Of a stretch of 64,000 bases of DNA, positions 27,203 through 44,226 are shown piece by piece. A program made the position numbers and the translations under genes. The stretch's first letter is position 1. Every line of letters begins with the position of its first letter. This DNA is from Treponema sp. (GTDB lineage Bacteria; Spirochaetota; Spirochaetia; Treponematales; Treponemataceae): contig JAILKS010000025.1 in assembly GCA_024693715.1 (NCBI GenBank), positions 1 through 64,000 on the forward strand, written 5' to 3'. The notes beneath the pieces are model-generated. The model had not been told where the DNA came from and made no database searches. It worked only from the letters and a program-made list of their open reading frames with translations.

Positions 27203-27231
27203 ATTATAAAAGCAATTTTTGCTCTTGACAA
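27203..27231 (-). promoter_or_regulatory. marR promoter, leaderless geometry
   Basis: On the minus strand TTGTCA (27231-27226) and TATAAT (27208-27203) are 17 bases apart; six bases separate the -10 box from the ATG. AGCAA-TTT-TTGCT, a small inverted repeat, lies in the spacer at 27211-27223. Confidence 0.75.
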
Positions 27232-27253
27232 TAGTTTTATATAAAACTAATAT
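27225..27253 (+). promoter_or_regulatory. BMP transporter promoter, leaderless geometry
   Basis: TTGACA (27225-27230) and TAATAT (27248-27253) are 17 bases apart. Seven bases separate the -10 box from the ATG at 27261. The -35 box shares five bases with the -35 box of the divergent marR promoter. Confidence 0.8.
27232..27249. promoter_or_regulatory. Perfect 18-bp palindrome, likely MarR operator
   Basis: TAGTTTTATATAAAACTA is a perfect palindrome filling the spacer of the BMP promoter and touching its -10 box. Its position next to marR and its size suit a MarR dimer, which would block both promoters. Confidence 0.7.
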
Positions 27254-27260
27254 ACACACT

Positions 27261-28274
27261 ATGAAAAAGATTATTTTATTATTATCATCATTATTTTTAT
27301 TATTCGGATGTTCATCAAAAAAGAACGGTAAATCAATTGCAGTTTTTGTACCAGGCATTATTGAAGACAGTCCTTGTTACAAAATGCTCGCTGACGGTGT
27401 TCAAAACGCAGTTAATAATTTCAACCAGAACAAAAGCGATGAGAACAAAGCGCAGCTGTTCATAATGGAAGCAGGTAATAATCAGTCTGAATGGGCAGAA
27501 AAGATTACAGCCTTATGTGCTAGTGGAAAGTATGATTTAATCATTTCTTCAAACCCTTCTTTACCGGCGATAGTTGAACCTCTTACACAGCAGTTTCCCG
27601 ATCAGAAATTCATCCTTCTGGATGCAACATGGGAAAACAACGATAACATTTATACTGTCTGCTACAATCAGTATGAACAGGCATATCTTACTGGTTATAT
27701 ATCAGGCTTAATGTCAAAAACAAAAAAAATTGCTTTAATAGCAGCACAGGAATATCCTGTTATGAATGACATTCTTTTTCCTTATTACAAAAAAGGAGCA
27801 CAGGCTGCAGACGGATCATGTGAAGTTTCATTTTTCGTTGTAGGCAACTGGTATGATGCAAATAAAAGCGCAGTAATCAGTAATACAGCAATAAACGACG
27901 GAGTTGATGTTCTTCTTCCAATCTGCGGTGGAGCGGCACAGGGAGTCATTAATTCTGCAGTAAACAACAAGGCATACATTACATGGTTTGATAACAACGG
28001 ATTTTCAAAAGCTCCCGGAACTGTTATTTCAAGTGCCATAATGGAACAGGAAAAAATGTCAGAACTTCTTGTAAAAAAATATTTTGAAGGAAAAATCCCA
28101 TGGGGAACTTCTGATACAGCCGGTATGAAAGATGGTTTTGTACGCTTCATCGAGGATGATCCTTTGTATACCGCAACAGTTCCTGAGGATATTCAGAAAA
28201 AAATGAGCGAACAGATTAAAGAAATCACAAAAAAACCTTTGGTAGAAACAAAACAATTTACGTTTGCAAAATAA
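27261..28274 (+). CDS. BMP/TmpC (PnrA-like) substrate-binding lipoprotein
   Basis: A lipoprotein with signal sequence KKIILLLSSLFLLFGCSS, the lipidated Cys being residue 17. The mature part matches the basic membrane protein family (PF02608): SIAVFVPGIIEDSPCYKMLADGV, KFILLDATW, YEQAYLTGYISGLMSK and VDVLLPICGGAAQGVI. Family members in treponemes bind purine nucleosides; the ligand here is inferred. The frame opens 14 codons upstream, but the ATG at 27261 begins the signal peptide and sits right after the promoter. First gene of a four-gene ABC operon. Confidence 0.9.
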   Translation: MKKIILLLSSLFLLFGCSSKKNGKSIAVFVPGIIEDSPCYKMLADGVQNAVNNFNQNKSDENKAQLFIMEAGNNQSEWAEKITALCASGKYDLIISSNPSLPAIVEPLTQQFPDQKFILLDATWENNDNIYTVCYNQYEQAYLTGYISGLMSKTKKIALIAAQEYPVMNDILFPYYKKGAQAADGSCEVSFFVVGNWYDANKSAVISNTAINDGVDVLLPICGGAAQGVINSAVNNKAYITWFDNNGFSKAPGTVISSAIMEQEKMSELLVKKYFEGKIPWGTSDTAGMKDGFVRFIEDDPLYTATVPEDIQKKMSEQIKEITKKPLVETKQFTFAK

Positions 28275-39692: not shown

Positions 39693-42284
39693 TTATTTTT
39701 TGATATCAAAAAAAGCAACCTGTGAATACCAGGTAAAAATCGTCTTATCACATGCGGAAAGAAGAAGATTGATTATTTTCTGTAAATCAGCAGTGCCTAC
39801 GCGCTCAACCATTTTTGAACCGTAGGCAGATGTTTTGGTATTAAACCATTTCTCGATTTCTGCAGGTGTAATTTTTCTTTTTTCATGAATATCCATTGTC
39901 TCTACTTTTACATCAAATGATTTTTTACGGAAGGTGTTTGCAATAAAAACTGCATCCCAAGAAAAAAGAGGGTTGTCCCTGTTGTTGAAAAATTCCTGTT
40001 CTGCGGCTTCCATCTTATCTAAAATATCAGAAAAAGCAGAAGAAGCTTCAGCTGAAAGAATCTGTTCCCGAACAAGCTTTGAAATATGCTGTGCCTTACA
40101 AGGGATTTTCTGCGAAATGATTATATGCCAGTCAGAAGCAAGCGGACATTCATAAGTATATTTTTCATCAGGCTGTAAATCATCTTCATGAGTTGATGTT
40201 CCGGTAAAATTCCTTTCATCATAATCATAATTTTGAGGAGTAAGCGTGCCTTCAACTGAATCTGCAAGAGCAATAATTGACGGTTCAGATATAAAAGGAT
40301 CTGTAAAAAACAATCTGTCAAACAAGGCGCCCTTATACTGAAAGCCTACAAGAACATCATAAAAATCCCTTGGTGTAAGAAAATCTGCAGAAAAATGCTC
40401 TCCACGAAGTTTAAGAATCGGACGATCAAGATCTCCAAGTGTTCTGCTGTATTGTTCAAGAATCTGACGGCCGTTTTCTGTTTTACAAACACCACAAGTA
40501 ACACCCTCCGGAGTCTTACGGGCAATTTCCCATAGAAGAAGTCCATTGTCTGCATTCCAGATTAAATTTCTGTGATGACGAACAAGATTTGCCATCTGTA
40601 CCATTTTATCACGGATATTCAGCAGTACCTCTGCCCTGTTGGAATCAAGTCGCTGACGCCAGAAACGATCTGCCCGGTCTAGTGCAATTTCTTTTGCATT
40701 ATCCTTCGGACTGAAAGTAAGATTTTCATTATTTTTCAAATCGCCGCTTTTAAAATGCTCGTTAATCCACCATTCACTGATATGATTCACACCAAATTCT
40801 GATTTCGCCCATTCACCGCTTAAAGCAGAACCAGCAAGGGTTGTCCCCGTTGTCCTGTTAATAGAGCCTGTTTCTTCAGGTGATGTAGCCAGCTCATTTG
40901 AAAACAAAGAATCTGAATTATTCTGTTTTTCCAGGATAGATGCAATTTGAATTTCACGTCTTGATAAAACTTCATTTCTTATCTGTGCTTCATATCCCTG
41001 TTTTGACGGTGTATAGAAAACCCTTCCCATCAAAGAATCAGGAAGATATTGCTGGGCAACCCAATGATCACGATATGCGTGCGGATACAAATAACCCGCT
41101 CCGTGTCCAAAACCTTCTGCATCCCTCGAAGAATCTTTTAAATGATTAGGAACATCTGTATTTTCTTTTTCGACCGATGATAATGCATCAAAAAATGCCA
41201 TGGAACTGTTTGATTTTGGAGCGGTGGAAAGATAAAGTGCCGCATGAGCCAGAAAATATCTTCCTTCCGGCATTCCTACCCTGTCAAAAGCCTGCGCACA
41301 GCTTTCTACAACTGTTATGGCGTTTGGGTCTGCAAGTCCTGTATCTTCACATGCAGAAATAAGCATCCTTCGGAAAATAAAATGAGGATCTTCACCGGCA
41401 GCAACCATTCTTGCAAGCCAGTAGCATGCAGCATCAGGATCTCTGCCCCGTAAGCTTTTTATAAACGCACTTATAATATCATAATGATAATCACCATCGC
41501 GGTCATAAAGGACAACCTTCTTCTGAATTGATTCTTCCGCTGCTTCCTTACTTATATAAATCTTTGTTCCGTAAGCAGGCACCGGAGGATTATCATAAGG
41601 CTTCCAGACTTCAGGTGTTGTTTCTACGGCAAGCTCAAGTGCATTAAGCAGGGAACGGGCATCTCCTGAAGCAGTTTCAATAAGATGTTCAAGCGCTCCA
41701 TCTTCAAACTCAACCTTATAATGGCCATATCCTCTTTCGCAGTCCGACAAGGCCATGTTTGCCGCTTTCAATAAATCGTCGTTAGAAAGAGGTTTCAATT
41801 GAAAAACGCGAGAACGGCTTACAAGAGCCTTATTAACTTCAAAAAAAGGATTTTCTGTCGTAGCGCCAATTAAAATAATTGTCCCGTTTTCGACCCATGG
41901 CAAAAGTGCATCCTGTTGACTTTTATTCCATCTATGAACTTCATCTACAAAAAGGATTGTCCGTCTCTGATAAAGATTCTTATACTCATCAGCTTTTTTA
42001 ATTGAGTCACGGATATCTGCAACTCCGGTAAGAACTGCATTTAAAGTTATAAAATTTGACTTTGTATGATTGGCAATTACTCTAGCTAAGGTTGTCTTAC
42101 CGCTTCCCGGAGGTCCATAAAAAATGACTGACGTTAATTGATCTGCAGAAATCGCACGCCTCAAAAGACGTCCTTTTCCGACAATATGATCCTGACCTAT
42201 ATATTCATCAAGATTACGGGGACGCATTCTTGCAGCAAGCGGTTCTGTTGATAATTGAATCTGCGCAAATAAATCGTCAGCCAT
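39693..42284 (-). CDS. rarA: RarA (MgsA) recombination ATPase fused to a large C-terminal domain
   Basis: Residues 1-430 are a replication-associated recombination AAA+ ATPase: MRPRNLDEYIGQDHIVG, Walker A FYGPPGSGKTTLARVIA, Walker B ILFVDEVHRWNKSQQD, sensor ATTENPFFEVN and the C-terminal ALYLSTAPKSNSSMAFFDAL region. Residues 450-863 are an extra domain not present in E. coli RarA. NCBI collections recognise a RarA/unknown-domain fusion (PRK13341), which I believe this is. The C-terminal part carries two repeat copies, read as TTGTTL and NNRDNP. It lies 21 bases downstream of ilvB on the same strand. Confidence 0.88.
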   Translation of the reverse strand: MADDLFAQIQLSTEPLAARMRPRNLDEYIGQDHIVGKGRLLRRAISADQLTSVIFYGPPGSGKTTLARVIANHTKSNFITLNAVLTGVADIRDSIKKADEYKNLYQRRTILFVDEVHRWNKSQQDALLPWVENGTIILIGATTENPFFEVNKALVSRSRVFQLKPLSNDDLLKAANMALSDCERGYGHYKVEFEDGALEHLIETASGDARSLLNALELAVETTPEVWKPYDNPPVPAYGTKIYISKEAAEESIQKKVVLYDRDGDYHYDIISAFIKSLRGRDPDAACYWLARMVAAGEDPHFIFRRMLISACEDTGLADPNAITVVESCAQAFDRVGMPEGRYFLAHAALYLSTAPKSNSSMAFFDALSSVEKENTDVPNHLKDSSRDAEGFGHGAGYLYPHAYRDHWVAQQYLPDSLMGRVFYTPSKQGYEAQIRNEVLSRREIQIASILEKQNNSDSLFSNELATSPEETGSINRTTGTTLAGSALSGEWAKSEFGVNHISEWWINEHFKSGDLKNNENLTFSPKDNAKEIALDRADRFWRQRLDSNRAEVLLNIRDKMVQMANLVRHHRNLIWNADNGLLLWEIARKTPEGVTCGVCKTENGRQILEQYSRTLGDLDRPILKLRGEHFSADFLTPRDFYDVLVGFQYKGALFDRLFFTDPFISEPSIIALADSVEGTLTPQNYDYDERNFTGTSTHEDDLQPDEKYTYECPLASDWHIIISQKIPCKAQHISKLVREQILSAEASSAFSDILDKMEAAEQEFFNNRDNPLFSWDAVFIANTFRKKSFDVKVETMDIHEKRKITPAEIEKWFNTKTSAYGSKMVERVGTADLQKIINLLLSACDKTIFTWYSQVAFFDIKK
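39968..39986 (-). repeat. REP-like repeat copy 7 (in rarA)
   Basis: On the minus strand AACAACAGGGACAACCCTC, read in the RDNP frame in the C-terminal domain. Confidence 0.65.
40836..40854 (-). repeat. REP-like repeat copy 8 (in rarA)
   Basis: On the minus strand GACAACGGGGACAACCCTT, read as TTGTTL, a different frame from copy 7 in the same gene. Confidence 0.65.
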
Positions 42285-42305: not shown

Positions 42306-44027
42306 TTATCTGATTGAATCAATATTTGCCTTACCGCCTGGAACAAACGGAAGAACAGATTCTTCAGGATCTACACTTATTCTGACAAAGCATGGTTTGT
42401 TTTTTCTATTCAAATCGAATGCCTTATTATACCACAAAGAATCAGAATCTGCATCAATTGCTTCAATACCAAAGCCTTTTGCAATTGCAAGTAAATCAGG
42501 CTGTTTTTCGAAAACTGACGCACTGTAATTTTTTTCAAACAGATATTTCTGCTGCTGATAAACCATTCCAAGAGTTCCATTCTGGAAAACAATGACGGTT
42601 ACCGGAAGATTTAATTCACAAAGTGTAGCAAGTTCCTGGATGTTCATCATAATAGAACCATCGCCGCTAAAGCATACAATCCTCTTATCCGGATTTGCAA
42701 GCCCCGCACCAATAGCAGCAGGAAGCCCAAAACCCATAGTACCAAGACTGCCTGAAGTAAGAAAAGTCCGTGTTTTTTTAACAGGATAATATTGAGCGGC
42801 CCACATCTGATGCTGACCGACATCTGTCGTAACTATAAGATTATCTTCATTAATTCCGCACTGTTTTGCATATTCAGGGATTTTTGAAATAACTTCACGA
42901 GGATTTGCAAGTGTTTCCTTTGCAGGTCGACCAAGCTCAAAGGAATCATTTTTTTCTTTAAGGGCAATAATTTTTTTGAGCCATTCAGAATCAGCTTTTA
43001 TCTTCTTTTCAGAAATAACCTGTGAAAGTCCAGGCATAACTGATTCAACATCTGCAACAATTGAAACATCAGTTTCAATGATTTTATCAATTTCTGCGGC
43101 ATCTATATCAATATGAATTATTTTTGCATCCGGGCAAAACTGTTTTACAAGACCAGTTGCCCTGTCATCAAAACGAACTCCAGCTGCAATTACAAGGTCA
43201 GCATCATGCATCGCTGCATTTGCCGCATAACTACCATGCATACCAACCATACCTATGAATTCACTTCTGTCACGAGGGATGCAGCCTAATCCCATCAAAC
43301 TCGAAACAACCGGAATCGGGTAATTATTCAAGAATGATAAAATACCTTCAGAAGCCTGTCGGGAATTACAACCGCCTCCGCAATAAAGAACTGCCCTTTT
43401 AGATTTTGCAATTAAATCTGTCATTTCCTTAAGCTTTCGAATCATTTCATCAGGATTTACATGAAACTTTAAAACAGGATGCTCAAAAACAGGATTTTTA
43501 AGTTCATCTTCAGATTCGATTTCTATTGTTTCAAGCTGAACATTACGGGGAACATCAATAAGAACAGGTCCGGGACGACCATTTTTTGCAATTTCAAATG
43601 CAAGAGGAACTGCTTCTAAAAGCTCACGTGCAGATTTTACCATTACAGAATGCTTTGTTATAGGAAATGAAAGTCCGAAGGTATCTGCTTCCTGGAATGC
43701 ATCTGTACCGATCAAATTTGTATTTACCTGACCTGTTATCGCTATGATAGGGATTGAATCACAGCGGGCATCGGCAATGGCAGTTAAAAGATTCATTGCA
43801 CCGGGACCACTTGTTGCCATGCAGACTGCGACAGAACCTGTAGAACGGGCAATTCCCTGTGCAATAAATCCGGCAGCCTGTTCCTGTCTTACAAGAATAT
43901 GCTGAATGGAAGAACGGTTCAGTTCATCATAAAGAGGTAAAATTGAACCGCCGGGAATACCAGAAACCATTTTAATGCCATTGTTCTCCAAGATTTTTAC
44001 GATAATCTGCGCGCCTGTTATTTTCAT
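42306..44027 (-). CDS. ilvB: IlvB, acetolactate synthase large subunit
   Basis: ThDP enzyme starting branched-chain amino acid synthesis; 573 residues. GIPGGSILPLYDELN with the following Glu in VRQEQAAGFIAQG is the N-terminal ThDP region, ATSGPGAMNLLTAIADA is near residue 72 and the ThDP motif GDGSIMMNIQELATL is near 447. GAGGTAG precedes the ATG. The small subunit ilvN is not adjacent; rarA follows instead. A leader peptide with a terminator/antiterminator lies upstream, so expression is predicted to respond to Val/Leu/Ile tRNA charging. Confidence 0.95.
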   Translation of the reverse strand: MKITGAQIIVKILENNGIKMVSGIPGGSILPLYDELNRSSIQHILVRQEQAAGFIAQGIARSTGSVAVCMATSGPGAMNLLTAIADARCDSIPIIAITGQVNTNLIGTDAFQEADTFGLSFPITKHSVMVKSARELLEAVPLAFEIAKNGRPGPVLIDVPRNVQLETIEIESEDELKNPVFEHPVLKFHVNPDEMIRKLKEMTDLIAKSKRAVLYCGGGCNSRQASEGILSFLNNYPIPVVSSLMGLGCIPRDRSEFIGMVGMHGSYAANAAMHDADLVIAAGVRFDDRATGLVKQFCPDAKIIHIDIDAAEIDKIIETDVSIVADVESVMPGLSQVISEKKIKADSEWLKKIIALKEKNDSFELGRPAKETLANPREVISKIPEYAKQCGINEDNLIVTTDVGQHQMWAAQYYPVKKTRTFLTSGSLGTMGFGLPAAIGAGLANPDKRIVCFSGDGSIMMNIQELATLCELNLPVTVIVFQNGTLGMVYQQQKYLFEKNYSASVFEKQPDLLAIAKGFGIEAIDADSDSLWYNKAFDLNRKNKPCFVRISVDPEESVLPFVPGGKANIDSIR

Positions 44028-44063
44028 AGCTACCTCAAAATAAAAAATTGTTAAACTAAAAAA

Positions 44064-44087
44064 GCTCCCCGGAAAATACCGGAGAGC
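44064..44087 (-). terminator. ilvB attenuator terminator
   Basis: On the minus strand GCTCTCCGG pairs with CCGGGGAGC around TATTTT and is followed by six T (44063-44058). It lies between the leader peptide and ilvB. CTCCGGT of its 5' arm is also complementary to ACCGGAG at 44132-44126, which gives the competing antiterminator. Confidence 0.88.
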
Positions 44088-44134
44088 CTTTTTCTATTTT
44101 GTCTTTTTAGCAAAATTTACAATGCCTCCGGTTA

Positions 44135-44191
44135 TTAACTAACCACTACGACGAGAATTGTAAGGATTTCGACTAAAAATGCTGATTTCAT
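44135..44191 (-). CDS. ilvL: ilv leader peptide
   Basis: An 18-codon reading frame, MKSAFLVEILTILVVVVS, with ten Ile/Leu/Val residues ending in four consecutive Val codons just before the stop. GGTTA/TAACC around the stop codon forms a small pause-type hairpin. A ribosome stalled in the Val run would cover its 5' arm and free ACCGGAG to pair with the terminator arm. It is too short for routine ORF calling. No Shine-Dalgarno is present and the promoter -10 box ends six bases before the ATG, so the leader seems to be translated from a leaderless RNA. Confidence 0.85.
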   Translation of the reverse strand: MKSAFLVEILTILVVVVS

Positions 44192-44197
44192 GGCTTA

Positions 44198-44226
44198 ATA
44201 ATGCAGTTTTTAAAAACAATTGTCAA
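44198..44226 (-). promoter_or_regulatory. ilv promoter, leaderless geometry
   Basis: On the minus strand TTGACA (44226-44221) and CATTAT (44203-44198) are 17 bases apart. Transcription would begin at the ATG of the leader peptide. Confidence 0.7.

Follow-up and report, generated by a model that had tools for sequence, protein, structure and literature searches.

ilvB in this Treponema genome is very probably preceded by a ribosome-mediated attenuator that ties expression of the gene to the supply of charged tRNA-Val and tRNA-Leu and whose short leader open reading frame (ORF) apparently begins at, or very nearly at, the first base of the mRNA. The element lies on the minus strand of the window (the whole stretch of 64,000 nucleotides that was analysed, which belongs to a 2.63-Mb genome). 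Judged by comparison within the genus, the ORF, the spacing between promoter and ATG, the alternative RNA pairings and the terminator are all conserved, and from these features we infer the actual transcription start, the translation of the leader, the stalling of the ribosome and the regulatory response. Attenuation of this kind by a leader peptide is a classical mechanism; for spirochaetes, here represented by gut-type Treponema, it is newly documented in the literature searched.

Gene product and genomic setting

The ilvB gene (42306–44027, minus strand) encodes a biosynthetic acetolactate synthase large subunit of 573 residues, which belongs to the enzyme that opens valine and leucine synthesis. 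The assignment is by profile match: TIGR00118 scores above its cut-off, whereas the best profile, PRK08155, is matched with a score short of its own cut-off. Among named relatives, the protein is nearest to that of Treponema MAG RUI115 (L031; 72%). A Shine–Dalgarno sequence, GAGG, can be read from the sequence at 44033–44036. On the other side of the gene, a RarA-like AAA ATPase to which a long C-terminal part is fused (39693–42284, minus strand) begins 21 bases past the end of ilvB, so that co-transcription of the two genes, and control of both by the same attenuator in this genome, is likely.

Architecture of the leader region

Read along the minus strand, to which all coordinates in this section refer, the region 5' of ilvB contains in order TTGACA, 17 bases, CATTAT, TAAGCC, ATGAAATCAGCATTTTTAGTCGAAATCCTTACAATTCTCGTCGTAGTGGTTAGTTAATAA, CCGGAGGC..., a GC-rich hairpin and six T. 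The −35 element TTGACA (44221–44226), which is also kept in relatives, and the −10 element CATTAT (44198–44203) are separated by a 17-nucleotide spacer and together match the consensus at 10 of 12 positions. Six bases (TAAGCC) separate CATTAT from the leader ATG at 44191. The leader ORF (MKSAFLVEILTILVVVVS followed by a stop codon; 44135–44191) is devoid of a Shine–Dalgarno core and, from its sequence and the comparison described below, is probably leaderless, with the A of the ATG as +1. Ten of its 18 codons specify Leu, Ile or Val, including the four Val codons GTC GTA GTG GTT at positions 14–17 (44152–44141), and the ORF ends in a double stop, TAA TAA.

A stop-codon hairpin, UGGUUA(guuaa)UAACCG (44129–44145), is indicated by folding and by compensatory forms in relatives and makes up the core of the 1:2 (anti-antiterminator) structure. 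The earlier note on this DNA had described it as a pause hairpin; such a hairpin is present, but it is only the inner part of the larger 1:2 structure (44117–44163), in which leader codons also pair. The outer pairing, seen in the MFE fold and consistent with the permutation test of regions 1 and 2 given below, joins UUACAAU in the leader codons (44163–44157) to AUUGUAA (44123–44117). Region 2, ACCGGAG (44132–44126), is the 5' strand of the antiterminator and forms a perfect 7-bp pairing with region 3, CUCCGGU (44084–44078), the antiterminator 3' strand, which lies inside the 5' arm of the terminator. Beyond this previously described pairing, the antiterminator has a second, inner stem of 6 bp between AUUUUG (44116–44111) and CAAAAU (44101–44096), and an analogous inner stem is found in relatives.

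The intrinsic terminator, GGCUCUCCGG(UAUUUU)CCGGGGAGCU with a following U6 (44058–44088, the U6 at 44063–44058), has a 10-bp stem that includes two G-U pairs and is conserved in relatives; it was found by RNAfold and was not listed by a simple hairpin scanner. Its T-run is followed by 30 bases that hold the Shine–Dalgarno site, and then by the ilvB ATG. The promoter, the 18-residue peptide with ten branched-chain residues and four consecutive Val codons, the seven-base antiterminator pairing and the GC-rich terminator with six T are thus all present where the earlier note had placed them.

The 150-nucleotide leader RNA folds with −44.9 kcal/mol (z = −5.1), and none of 200 shuffled sequences was equally stable. 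Of the window's 824 short ORFs with an ATG start, the leader alone combines a core rich in branched-chain residues (at least 7 of 10) with TTGAC 33–38 nucleotides upstream; a control on shuffled windows gave one comparable case in 30 windows.

Conservation within the genus

A protein related to IlvB was present in 194 of the 196 genomes of the genus that were searched. In the genus, about 112 regions upstream of ilvB were read for the element, and about 50 of them contain the complete arrangement. The conserved leader is an ATG ORF of 17–20 codons in most cases, longer in a few, whose core is LVxVVxVLVxVV or some variant. The ORF ends in a stop codon, and a hairpin spans this codon or lies close to it. 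Region 2 takes the form CCAGAGAG, CCGGGAG, CCGGAAG or AGGAGC, and the terminator that closes the arrangement has a complementary 5' arm. The reading frame is kept throughout, and differences in length are whole codons (alignment A1).

The pairing of the stop-codon hairpin is preserved by compensatory changes although the codons differ, with forms such as UGGUUA/UAACCA, UGGC/GCCA, AGUCA/UGACU, GGUUU/AAGCC, AUUGC/GCAAU and GUAGC/GCUAU, among others. Among 19 dissimilar leaders, region 2 pairs more stably with its own region 3 than with a swapped partner (mean −13.6 versus −11.1 kcal/mol) and region 1 likewise with its own region 2 (−21.4 versus −15.2 kcal/mol), values attained in 0 of 5000 permutations each; because the leaders share kinship, these counts are not independent and the permutation values are not strict probabilities. 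Some 50 relatives thus keep the peptide, the stop-codon hairpin, the antiterminator and the terminator, with compensatory changes among them, and the covariation on which the reading in the earlier note depended is found in the pairings.

The attenuator is missing from several lineages within the genus whose IlvB is 73–75% identical; L009 and L021, for example, have no leader ORF. In these two and in L022 (ilvB 73–74% identical), a promoter-like sequence and a Shine–Dalgarno-like site stand directly before the gene. The absence of the attenuator from these three would represent a lineage-specific loss of control.

Start of transcription and translation

In 49 leaders the distance from the −35 hexamer to the leader ATG is 35 nucleotides in 20 cases, 36 in 14 and 37 in eight, with 34, 38 and 39 found once each and 40 four times. 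TTGACA (or TTGACT) accordingly lies 35–37 nucleotides before the ATG in 42 of the 49. The base preceding the ATG is T or C, again in 42 of 49, as expected if the A of the ATG is the initiating purine. A Shine–Dalgarno core precedes two of 35 leader ATGs versus 32 of 35 ilvB ATGs, and the promoter itself occupies the space in which a ribosome-binding site of the leader would be. A leaderless start has good comparative support in this combination of spacing, pyrimidine at −1 and absence of a Shine–Dalgarno sequence, and the leader ORF is probably leaderless, with transcription starting at the ATG or within 1–2 nucleotides of it.

The attenuator might also operate from a start 2–8 nucleotides farther upstream, with a very short 5' UTR lacking a Shine–Dalgarno sequence. 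Such an arrangement would accommodate the minority spacings of 38–40 nucleotides and the variation of sigma-70 start sites by a base or two, but it is unlikely in view of the tight 35–37 spacing, the pyrimidine at −1, the purine at +1 and the missing Shine–Dalgarno sequence. In the four leaders with a 40-nucleotide spacing, transcription may nevertheless start a few bases upstream.

The geometry that suggests a leaderless start of the ilvB leader is not confined to that gene. The genome contains 18 sites of the form TTGACA-N16–18-TANNNT-N5–7-ATG, compared with nine for the reversed pattern and eight when the ATG is placed 17 bases farther. Roughly half of these sites stand at the head of long ORFs, among them those of a lipoprotein at 27261 in the window, a P-type ATPase-like and an ABC-transporter-like protein (named from reading of the sequence). 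Given this excess and the long ORFs, mRNAs of the leaderless type are probably commonplace in this organism, as they are in Leptospira, for which about 440 have been mapped (PMC5243855). The proposal in the earlier note that the leader ATG is the first base of the mRNA has comparative support, but the strangeness attributed to it was overstated, since leaderless leaders and leaderless mRNAs have already been published.

For this lipoprotein-like gene (MKKIILLLSSLFLLFGCSSKK..), another candidate for a leaderless mRNA, the stretch concerned is 27225–27263 of the window (plus strand), in which a TTGACA promoter-like site ends a few bases before the ATG at 27261. Pattern searches of the genome for leaderless leaders with a terminator returned only ilvB and one other case (L278; G000:C43:6742–6779, minus strand, and downstream), in which a Thr-rich ORF of 33 residues with leaderless geometry, MMKFFVIETTYTSTSTTVTTTTGVGMHLDYRKE, stands ahead of a strong terminator and a gene for a GNAT acetyltransferase. 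Near relatives of the GNAT gene are without this ORF, and a second attenuator is therefore not claimed.

Proposed mechanism and its simulation

In the proposed mechanism, transcription would start on the leader ATG or no more than a base or two away from it, and a ribosome would initiate on the leaderless, or nearly leaderless, RNA. With charged Val and Leu tRNAs available, the ribosome would get to the stop codon and cover region 2, the terminator would form and ilvB would be off. When these tRNAs are scarce, the ribosome would stall in the Val/Leu block and prevent formation of the stop-codon hairpin; region 2 would then pair with region 3, the terminator would be blocked and ilvB would be on.

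The consequences of ribosome position were modelled by masking a ribosome at each codon, folding the downstream RNA up to the terminator 5' arm and counting the expected 2:3 pairs. The antiterminator pairs reach a maximum of 11.3–11.7 when the A site is between 8 and 4 codons short of the stop and fall to 9.8 at three codons before it, 7.1 at two, 4.5 at one and 2.7 at the stop itself. The positions of high antiterminator pairing are those of the Val/Leu block, with Val or Leu the commonest residue at each and Ile rare. Stalling farther upstream still leaves region 2 free in many genomes (8.6–11 pairs); what is chiefly told apart is therefore a ribosome before the stop codon and one at it. A control run gave 2.5 pairs for the free RNA, 11.7 for the stalled ribosome, 2.7 for the ribosome at the stop and 5.6 for the stalled ribosome with a shuffled region 2, and the stalled value exceeded the stop value in 32 of 32 genomes.

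In the free RNA of the window's own copy, the 1:2 structure does little to suppress the antiterminator (9.5 of 11.2 pairs); here the ribosome at the stop codon would therefore make the difference and matter more than the 1:2 structure of the free RNA. For the full transcript at equilibrium the terminator is always preferred, and the switch must therefore be kinetic, as in all such attenuators. Within the model, the geometry fits an attenuator in which a ribosome on the regulatory codons frees region 2 and a ribosome on the stop codon blocks it. Ribosome-mediated attenuation, as the earlier note had proposed, is upheld both by this classical behaviour and by the conservation of its elements in about 50 relatives.

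Alternative structures and a terminator before ilvB might equally be expected of a structured RNA switch, such as a riboswitch for a branched-chain metabolite or ppGpp, that contains an incidental ORF, and a family of leader or riboswitch in Rfam that would identify the element is lacking, no match above the gathering threshold being found anywhere in the 64-kb window. A switch of this type is nonetheless very improbable: the frame, the stop and the Val/Leu composition are conserved while the nucleotides and the arm sequences vary, no conserved aptamer-like core is seen, and the regulatory effect is predicted only by ribosome position. A constitutive terminator of the upstream gene combined with a chance ORF, with ilvB expressed from elsewhere, would agree with the chance frequency of promoter-like sites in the region but is already contradicted by the conservation of the complete arrangement, with covariation, in about 50 genomes and is almost certainly wrong.

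Relation to known attenuators

The closest functional parallel to the Treponema attenuator is ivbL of Escherichia coli. In ivbL-ilvBN, as here, a Val-rich leader peptide, alternative hairpins and a terminator precede an ilvB of the AHAS-I type; enterobacterial IlvB proteins with upstream ivbL-like peptides are 45–46% identical to that of the window, itself closest to PRK08155. The E. coli peptide is longer, with 32 residues, and, unlike the Treponema leader, is not known to lie at the +1 of its promoter. Homology of RNA or peptide beyond composition was not detected between the two, and ilvB in the window has no ilvN directly downstream, in contrast to ilvBN.

In Streptomyces lividans, ilvL before ilvBHC has been reported to be transcribed leaderless and shares with the present element the branched-chain codons, the downstream terminator and the regulated gene (PMC8079986), but it belongs to another phylum and its peptide (MRTRILVLGKRVG) is unrelated. 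Changes of leader codons in S. coelicolor were without effect (PMC1262725). The attenuator RNA of Sinorhizobium meliloti trpL/rnTrpL likewise begins with the ATG of the leader ORF, but it carries Trp codons, controls trpE(G) and gives rise to a released RNA and peptide that act in trans (PMC7298713). In Mycobacterium tuberculosis, ilvB1 is preceded by a short ORF with LVVI regulatory codons and an antiterminator/terminator switch, and evidence of attenuation has been published (PMC13236596); phylum and sequence are different.

According to a survey of 2010, Proteobacteria and Actinobacteria were at that time the only groups with known leader-peptide systems, to which the survey added Firmicutes (PMC2965389). 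The literature search, whose coverage excluded older subscription papers, brought up no Treponema paper in which a leader peptide is linked to transcription attenuation. The present element adds a covariation-backed case of classical leader-peptide attenuation in spirochaetes, and further families of spirochaetes also have Val-rich ORFs before this type of ilvB. Near-leaderless attenuators of fixed geometry also form a clean natural series for the speed of ribosome loading on the first RNA bases. Within spirochaetes, the Leptospira motif WRC-14-1, a weak and tentative riboswitch candidate with only seven representatives, is always located upstream of ilvB (PMC8632094); this likeness, drawn from its description, suggests that the motif deserves a check for a leader peptide.

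Occurrence beyond the genus

A search with a model built on the element (R1) covered the genome of the window and 393 genomes from the phylum; homologues over the full length were restricted to the genus and, within it, to sites before ilvB. Weak matches elsewhere were, in the cases inspected, ordinary terminators or chance. Val-rich ORFs before ilvB of the same type also occur in L265 (MNTVFAVLVVVLVSVVVLKCG..) and L230 (MNMILALAAVVLLVVELVVV..), which are both in the same family and both have TTGACA 35 nucleotides before the ATG. Outside the spirochaetes, the Enterobacteriaceae have ivbL-like peptides before related ilvB genes, and Val-rich ORFs of other kinds are found in that place in Rhodocyclaceae, Fibrobacteres, Breznakibacter and a myxobacterium, so that Val-rich ORFs accompany many AHAS-I type ilvB genes across phyla.

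A more speculative and, in our estimation, decidedly doubtful extension is that leaderless initiation is a selected part of the Treponemataceae ilvB attenuator and that Val-rich leaders travelled with AHAS-I type ilvB across phyla. The fixed distance from promoter to ATG would load the ribosome on the first nascent nucleotides, and attenuation would then read the state of initiation (e.g. 70S availability or initiation-factor levels in stress) in addition to the supply of Val and Leu.

In other spirochaete families, short Val-rich ORFs likewise stand before ilvB of the same type, mostly without the 35-nucleotide leaderless spacing (L252, L254, L255, L258, L261 and L267; for example ..LAVLVVVVVCKHTYRSVP in L254, MNFGANSMLLLVVVVVLISAP in L258 and MANKPQQLWLTVMVVVVVVVMHAVGA in L267). 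Several of these ORFs end in ..YRFTP, ..YRFAP, ..YRSVP or ..ISAP, a recurrent C-terminal motif.
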